DNA of 34,261 bases from Candidatus Omnitrophota bacterium (lineage in GTDB: Bacteria; Omnitrophota; Gorgyraeia; Gygaellales; Profunditerraquicolaceae), in NCBI GenBank assembly GCA_016867115.1, contig VGKG01000013.1:1-34261 (forward strand), read 5' to 3'. The stretch's first letter is position 1, and the number at the start of each line of letters is the position of its first letter. The position numbers were made by a program, and so were the translations under genes. The notes beneath the pieces were generated by a model that made no database searches, was not told the DNA's origin, and was given only the letters and a program-made list of their open reading frames with translations. This document shows positions 33,679-34,261 of the stretch, in pieces.

Positions 33679-33918
33679 TTATTCTTTAATCTTTTTCACC
33701 AGGCTTCTTACCGTCGGAGACATCTGTGCTCCGTTCTTCACCCAACCGAGGATCTTTTCTTTTTTCAACCTTACCTCTCCGCTTGAGGGATTATAGAAGC
33801 CCAACTCCTCAATGACCCTTGAATCGCGGCCGGAACGCTCGTCAAAAACAGAGACCCGGAAATGCGGCTTGCCTTTTGGATTTTTGCCGATCCTTCTTAG
33901 ACGGATGTGTACTGCCAT
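33679..33918 (-). CDS. rpsP: 30S ribosomal protein S16
   Basis: Early 30S assembly protein. The 79-residue protein begins MAVHIRLRRIGKNPKGKPHFRVSV and ends with the conserved GAQMSPTVRSLVKK segment. GGAG precedes the ATG at proper distance. In many bacteria rpsP is followed by rimM, trmD and rplS; here yajC follows, 24 bases on, so that set has been rearranged. It is the last gene before the repeat region at the window edge. Confidence 0.97.
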   Translation of the reverse strand: MAVHIRLRRIGKNPKGKPHFRVSVFDERSGRDSRVIEELGFYNPSSGEVRLKKEKILGWVKNGAQMSPTVRSLVKKIKE

Positions 33919-34020
33919 ACTACTCTCCTCTGTGTTGTGCTTACTTTTTTTTATTTGTGCCGCCTCGCGTAATGCGCTCGGCGTAAATTTGCTGGCTTTG
34001 TATACTAGAGCAAATTTAAG
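33919..34020. repeat. Upstream region of rpsP with hairpin and possible partial element
   Basis: TAAATTTGCT (33984-33993) pairs perfectly with AGCAAATTTA (34009-34018), loop of 15. Next to it the plus strand reads GCCGCCTCG (33959-33967), then CGTAATGCGCTCGGCGT, which resembles the GCCGCCTCG-ATTACTCGCC-TTTGGCGT section of copy A (12271-12297). This may be a partial third copy of the hairpin family. No clear promoter for rpsP was found; together with 34021-34261 this is 343 bases without a gene. Confidence 0.4.
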
Positions 34021-34261
34021 TGCCCCTGGCAGGAATCTCCCGCCAAGCTAATCAAGCCTAGGGCGGGATCCCGTCCTCCTATCAGTTGCCGGACGGGAGA
34101 ACCTGACCGAGGCGATTCCTGCCTTGCGAATATGGTGCCCCTGGCAGGAATCTCCCGCCAAGCTAATCAAGCCTAGGGCGGGATCCCGTCCTCCTATCAG
34201 TTGCCGGACGGGAGAACCTGACCGAGGCGATTCCTGCCTTGCGAATATGGTGCCCCTGGCA
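34021..34261. repeat. Tandem repeat, 115-bp period, at the window edge
   Basis: Unit one is 34021-34135, unit two 34136-34250, and a third begins at 34251 and is cut by the window end; the units look identical. Each can form an outer stem GGCAGGAATC/GATTCCTGCC (34028-34037 with 34114-34123), and inside it two adjacent hairpins, TCCCGCC/GGCGGGA (34038-34044 with 34062-34068) and TCCCGTCC/GGACGGGA (34069-34076 with 34091-34098). This makes a closed three-way junction with no unpaired base between the arms on one side. There is no coding frame of note. Identical units at a contig edge can also be an assembly artefact. Confidence 0.9.

Follow-up and report, generated by a model that had tools for sequence, protein, structure and literature searches.

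A tandem array at a contig end in an Omnitrophota genome: a probable mobile double-hairpin element in a decoy tRNA-Arg(CCU)

Introduction

A contig of a Candidatus Omnitrophota genome (1.47 Mb, 52 contigs) ends in a tandem array of short units, each with the appearance of a three-way junction, and the locus raises the question of what kind of entity such an array represents. The original prediction, made from the window by itself (i.e., the whole 34,261-bp stretch analyzed here, which constitutes contig C13), had offered three options: an array of structured RNAs, an array of protein-binding DNA sites, and a mobile repeat. Here we describe the anatomy of the unit, its relatives in other genomes and the sites in which they lie, and weigh the competing explanations against these observations.

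Results

The repeat unit and its fold

TRF detects an array at 34020-34261 with a period of 115, 2.1 copies and 100% identity, which resolves into two identical 115-bp units followed by 12 nt up to the contig end (Table 1). A second analysis agrees with the tandem 115-bp repeat originally reported, with its start corrected from 34021 to 34020. The units share a single defined border with unique sequence, GGGGCAC|TTAAATTT, and the last unit on C13 continues into TTAAATTTGC and then into rpsP. Because this gene, recognized by its Ribosomal_S16 match, is on the minus strand at about 33679-33918, the array is indeed upstream of it. The predicted outer 10-bp stem (in unit 1, GGCAGGAATC at 34028-34037 paired with GATTCCTGCC at 34114-34123) and the inner 7-bp and 8-bp stems are all present in each unit. 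The further claim that the arms directly abut holds for the inner stems and the left side of the junction; on the other side, 15 nt (34099-34113), in which a weak 4-bp hairpin is possible, lie between the second inner stem and the outer stem's 3' strand. Both strands fold far better than their shuffled counterparts as RNA (z -4.35 and -3.88), as does the unit when treated as DNA (z -5.42).

Table 1. Features of the array and its surroundings in the window
Feature	Position	Strand	Remark
Unit 1 (115 bp), closest to rpsP	34020..34134	-	
Unit 2 (115 bp), identical to unit 1	34135..34249	-	
Beginning of a third unit, or else the tRNA-Arg(CCU) 3' end proper; end of the contig	34250..34261	-	
Copy of the tRNA-Arg(CCU) 3' end, GATTCCTGCCAGGGGCAC (minus strand); right half of the decoy T-arm	34020..34037	-	Identical to the tRNA gene ending contig C2
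Core hairpin A, 7-bp stem TCCCGCC/GGCGGGA (34038-34044/34062-34068)	34038..34068	.	
Core hairpin B, 8-bp stem TCCCGTCC/GGACGGGA (34069-34076/34091-34098)	34069..34098	.	
Centre linking hairpins A and B, GGGATCCC			
Left half of the decoy T-arm, TCAGGTTC (minus strand)	34099..34106	-	Matches the tRNA T-arm around GTTC|GA
Inverted copy of the T-arm 3' strand, GGCAGGAATC (minus strand), making the 10-bp outer stem	34114..34123	-	In the Arg(CCG) copy L004, altered in step with the host tRNA
Double-hairpin core of unit 2	34153..34213	.	
rpsP, first gene past the array	33679..33918 (about)	-	Ribosomal_S16, E 6e-17

A double hairpin within a decoy tRNA arm

Read on the minus strand, the unit consists, in order, of a linker CATATTCGCAA, GGCAGGAATC, GCCTCGG, TCAGGTTC, a 61-bp double hairpin and GATTCCTGCCAGGGGCAC. 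The double hairpin (hereafter the core) therefore interrupts a partial second copy of tRNA-Arg(CCU) at its T-loop, GTTC|GA. What forms the outer stem in the three-way junction is T-arm sequence of the host tRNA rather than a part of the element itself. Copies at tRNA-Arg(CCU) and tRNA-Arg(CCG) in the host genome have related linkers, yet in each the inverted T-arm segment fits its own tRNA.

A search of the host genome also recovers 101 nt of the unit, at 100% identity, where contig C2 ends, straight after a tRNA-Arg(CCU) gene preceded by an ORF that we read as apt-like. From the shared repeat ends we infer that the simplest layout runs from the C2 tRNA through the array to rpsP on C13. In relatives, tRNA-Arg(CCU) is often followed by an ORF that is presumably PHP-domain-like, judging from our reading of the frame; in the host genome the PHP-like ORF is on C16 and not behind tRNA-Arg, so that a rearrangement must be assumed for the C2-C13 join.

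The location of the array at the end of C13, together with the unit at the end of C2, could be taken to mean that the assembler repeated a single real unit at a contig end. However, arrays of the same architecture occur inside contigs, at tRNA-Pro in the host genome (109 bp, 2.2 copies) and at tRNA-Glu in another genome (115 bp, 2.4 copies), and the units have the one defined border with unique sequence noted above. These internal arrays weaken the concern and make an artefact highly improbable in our estimation, leaving uncertain the copy number on C13 itself, because the window ends where the contig does. The element would stand even if the array in the window were an assembly artefact.

Distribution of the core

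The centre GGCGGGATCCCGCC is found with at most one mismatch at 21 places in the host genome, in which a reversed-motif control gave no matches, and the central motif is present in 33 of the 58 genomes searched, the host genome included. A 24-base pattern capturing the full double hairpin has at least 109 matching stretches among GTDB genome contigs, against roughly one match by our estimate of the chance expectation under uniform base composition. Among the 109 matches listed, the record titles name Omnitrophota in about 97 cases, a bacterium only in 5 and other groups in 7, of which some look like chance matches in GC-rich genomes. Core-like matches in contigs titled as Patescibacteria-group or Planctomycetales (L149, L188, L194 and L208), two of them in T-arm-like sequence, reflect either real spread or misbinned contigs. 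Since the complete chromosome NZ_CP019384 (Candidatus Velamenicoccus archaeovorus) carries the pattern, the architecture cannot be put down to draft assembly. The pattern had no match in viral contigs, and a viral origin of the element was dropped on this account.

The full collection comprises 168 distinct cores, whose lengths range over 33-79 nt, are mostly within 57-68 and have a mode at about 60-63. Their hairpin arms are mostly of 6-7 bp, and the loops vary freely. The first arm positions are largely fixed by the search pattern; position 7 is paired in 88% of the cores as against at most 77% in shuffled sequences.

Target site and tRNA layouts

The flanks of the cores display the consensus TTN|NAA, which is contained in T-loops (GTTC|RA) and in several anticodon and D loops. 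Of the 168 cores, 53 are within 200 bp of a tRNA, against 2.6 expected, and the tRNA-associated cores are positioned in the T-loop, the anticodon loop or the D-arm, with no acceptor-stem insertion among the well-matched tRNA cases. In 16 tRNA insertions, the flanks match the uninterrupted arm exactly over 10+10 nt, with neither duplication nor loss at the junction. The tRNA-adjoining cores, about a third of the total, are inside duplicated T-, anticodon- or D-arms alongside an intact tRNA, which persists beside the disrupted arm because the partial duplication ends at or near the tRNA end. Two layouts are seen: in the first, an intact tRNA and a short linker precede a T-arm or anticodon arm that contains the core, after which comes the tRNA 3' end; in the second, the tRNA 5' part with the core is followed by the remainder of the arm, a linker or ORF, and then the intact tRNA. 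The decoy T-stems have 95 of 110 positions paired, compared with a mean of 72 and a maximum of 84 after shuffling, and at five loci (L006, L007, L060, L097 and L151) the decoy differs from the native arm on both sides of the stem.

Some loci carry CCA on one copy only, raising the possibility of retro-copying from mature tRNA; this was dropped because the copy bearing the CCA is the intact one in some loci but the decoy elsewhere. Hairpin-loop targeting was likewise rejected as a general rule: outside tRNAs the flank pairing is modest (3.73 versus 2.90 in shuffled sequences, with a maximum of 3.57 over 30 shuffles), so that the TTNNAA sequence explains more than structure does. Direct repeats flank 8 of the 98 non-tRNA cores, against 0.7 expected, and thus partial duplication is not general. 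As a separate observation, L012 (host C1, near 239 kb) and L076 (genome G033) have group I introns, as identified by Rfam, beside a double hairpin in a T-arm-like decoy, apparently within a tRNA gene; a tmRNA reading of these two loci was rejected, as ARAGORN finds none and Rfam gives the introns.

Sites outside tRNAs and empty sites

Beyond tRNAs, cores are found in frame within ORFs, in 23S rRNA and between genes. Core length is divisible by three in 35 of the 56 cores within open frames, a count that is biased by the very requirement for an open frame. The core-bearing ORFs include ones that we take, by reading of the frames, to be TatD-, Clp- and threonine synthase-like, and in five genomes (L043, L115, L139, L153 and L154) the TatD-like ORF carries its in-frame core at one shared position of the protein. 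In the host genome, a core centred near 8635 of contig C1 (L025) interrupts a 23S rRNA gene near LSU model position 1457.

We fetched 30 tRNA-Arg(CCU) loci, of which 15 show the 3' flank in the direction of the tRNA: 2 of these are occupied, 1 has a remnant and 12 are empty. The occupied sites are those of the host genome and of G058, which has a single unit whose arms have diverged but still pair; the remnant, at L228, has no core; and at the empty sites the tRNA runs directly into unrelated sequence or the PHP-like ORF. This pattern of empty versus occupied sites could in part be due to losses.

The search for copies elsewhere thus returned them both in the host genome and in relatives, and the dispersed single copies, the occupied and empty orthologous sites and the precise insertion site support the mobile-repeat option of the original prediction; that the unit is a dispersed, inserted element we hold with high confidence. 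The structured-RNA and protein-binding options fared poorly, as the Rfam scan of the window matched only two tRNAs, with no covariance model for the unit, and copies are also present in ORFs and rRNA. The former deserves a fuller hearing, because a three-way junction that assists the processing of tRNA or controls the gene downstream of it, rpsP in this case, would account for the very stable folds, for decoy T-stems that remain paired, some with two-sided differences from the native arm, and for an outer stem that differs with the tRNA between the Arg(CCU) and Arg(CCG) copies. However, it does not sit well with the patchy presence at an orthologous tRNA, the cores in ORFs, 23S rRNA and intergenic DNA, the location of the core on either side of the tRNA, or the lack of an Rfam family, and we regard it as very unlikely.

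Candidate enzymes for the insertion

A small GIY-YIG ORF adjoins the core in 15 loci. In 13 of these, assigned through one scanned protein (PF01541, E 7e-16) and by tblastn relatedness for the rest, the ORF is 15-52 bp from the core and typically has the core on one side and the restored tRNA on the other; the other two loci are L285 and L286. One such locus, L034, is at tRNA-Glu in the host genome, and the locus in the window is of the ORF-less form, with no GIY-YIG ORF beside the core. About half of the small GIY-YIG ORFs in relatives are near a tRNA, and some of these (L289, L291 and L309) are accompanied by divergent double hairpins. Across genomes, the core count correlates with the GIY-YIG count (rho 0.52, p 3e-5), a value that is uncorrected for phylogeny and to which the GIY-YIG loci themselves contribute cores. 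Most cores lack an adjoining GIY-YIG gene, and hence the endonuclease would need to work in trans. The loop sequence is complete in the restored tRNA, so that the presumed cut site of the donor, if within the tRNA, is intact; classical homing avoids keeping the cut site in the donor. On balance, we place the role of the GIY-YIG enzyme as the driver of insertion at slightly under an even chance.

Two further loci show variant arrangements. At L221 (host C8), tRNA-Gln(CTG) is followed at ~110 bp by a GIY-YIG ORF; the locus contains an inverted repeat, TGGTTCGACGC..GCGTCGAACCA, and lacks a canonical core. At L292 (G050), a GIY-YIG ORF is downstream of a tRNA-Glu decoy whose anticodon arm is replaced by a single large CCCCGCC..GGCGGGG hairpin.

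A different enzyme is implied if the cores are akin to REPINs, in which two inverted REP hairpins are mobilized by a Y1 (RAYT) transposase on single-stranded DNA. Like these, the Omnitrophota cores are dispersed, short pairs of inverted GC-rich hairpins; Y1 genes are present in 43 of the 58 genomes, and one in the host (L069, C6:9098-9424) comes after a repeat, GGGACAG..GGCGGGATCTGTCCC, containing a half-core-like stretch. However, the correlation between core and Y1 counts, likewise uncorrected for phylogeny, is weak and not significant (rho 0.22, p 0.10); of the 13 genomes that have five or more cores, three, all drafts and one of them 98% complete, have no Y1 match; no core flanks L069, the one Y1 gene read; and, unlike REPINs, the cores are often within genes and tRNA arms. 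We therefore consider a REPIN-like origin unlikely.

Discussion

Taken together, the unit is likely a mobile double-hairpin element of Omnitrophota situated in the T-loop of a decoy tRNA-Arg(CCU), perhaps by way of GIY-YIG breaks, and tandemly expanded by recombination. Under this proposal, GIY-YIG endonucleases would cut tRNA genes in their T-, anticodon or D loops, starting the insertion, and repair would re-supply the missing part of the tRNA and install or carry the core. The ORF-less form in the window may be a reduced version of the GIY-YIG-bearing form. Each unit is bounded by 18-bp direct repeats of the tRNA 3' end, and unequal recombination between these could have given rise to the array; alternatively, it could stem from renewed insertion at the restored tRNA.

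Double-hairpin elements (DHEs) have been described mainly from fungal mitochondria, and we know of no enzyme that moves them. Those of Allomyces and Schizosaccharomyces are dispersed in intergenic DNA and rRNA genes and are presumed to be mobile, in Allomyces without flanking duplication (PMC10085805, PMC2800124). They are structurally the closest to the Omnitrophota element, all 168 cores of which are two abutting GC-rich hairpins, and which, as in Allomyces, is inserted without target-site duplication in the 16 tRNA insertions that match the uninterrupted arm over 10+10 nt. In contrast to DHEs, it is chromosomal in bacteria, has a TTN|NAA site and a GIY-YIG partner, prefers tRNA arms with duplication of the tRNA, and has in-frame copies in ORFs. 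In its intragenic habit it is closest to the Rickettsia palindromic elements, which are found in frame in unrelated genes of one bacterial group, and are about 150 bp in length with a conserved encoded peptide (PMC10969869). The Omnitrophota cores share the in-frame presence in protein genes; unlike the Rickettsia elements, they are mostly double hairpins of 57-68 bp with free loops, and tRNA arms are their main hotspot. Both likenesses are of structure or habit.

Integrative elements that target tRNAs through integrase att sites insert in a tRNA gene and re-supply its missing end. The Omnitrophota element similarly inserts within a tRNA gene whose missing end is re-supplied; it differs in that most units are of ~100 bp without an integrase, and the insert is a hairpin pair at the loop. 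A parallel for the GIY-YIG partner is offered by SegB of T-even phages, a free-standing GIY-YIG homing endonuclease adjoining tRNA genes, which is reported to have the preferred motif RAWTSGAAC and to cause enzyme-dependent tandem amplification beside tRNA genes (PMC13096335). By our reading of that motif, its reverse complement, GTTCSAWTY, would correspond to the T-loop. The two systems have in common a GIY-YIG gene beside tRNA genes, a T-loop-like motif and tandem amplification of tRNA segments; SegB is, unlike the Omnitrophota enzymes, that of a phage, and the passages of PMC13096335 consulted mention no double hairpin or split-and-restored tRNA. Our search of the literature for Omnitrophota tRNA palindromes, or for GIY-YIG enzymes with split bacterial tRNA genes, found nothing fitting.

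More tentatively, and with the odds leaning somewhat against it, these loci might represent a distinct class of bacterial mobile elements, in which a GIY-YIG endonuclease accompanied by a double-hairpin cassette breaks tRNA loops and re-supplies the tRNA half, with the hairpin alone spreading in trans to TTNNAA sites, including in-frame positions in proteins and 23S rRNA. Because the element has a precise target (TTN|NAA), landing sites in tRNAs and a candidate enzyme beside many of its copies, its mobility is directly testable. The element shows a way into essential tRNA genes without their loss and, in a phylum known chiefly through metagenomes, gives rise to tRNA fragments, protein insertions and tandem repeats.
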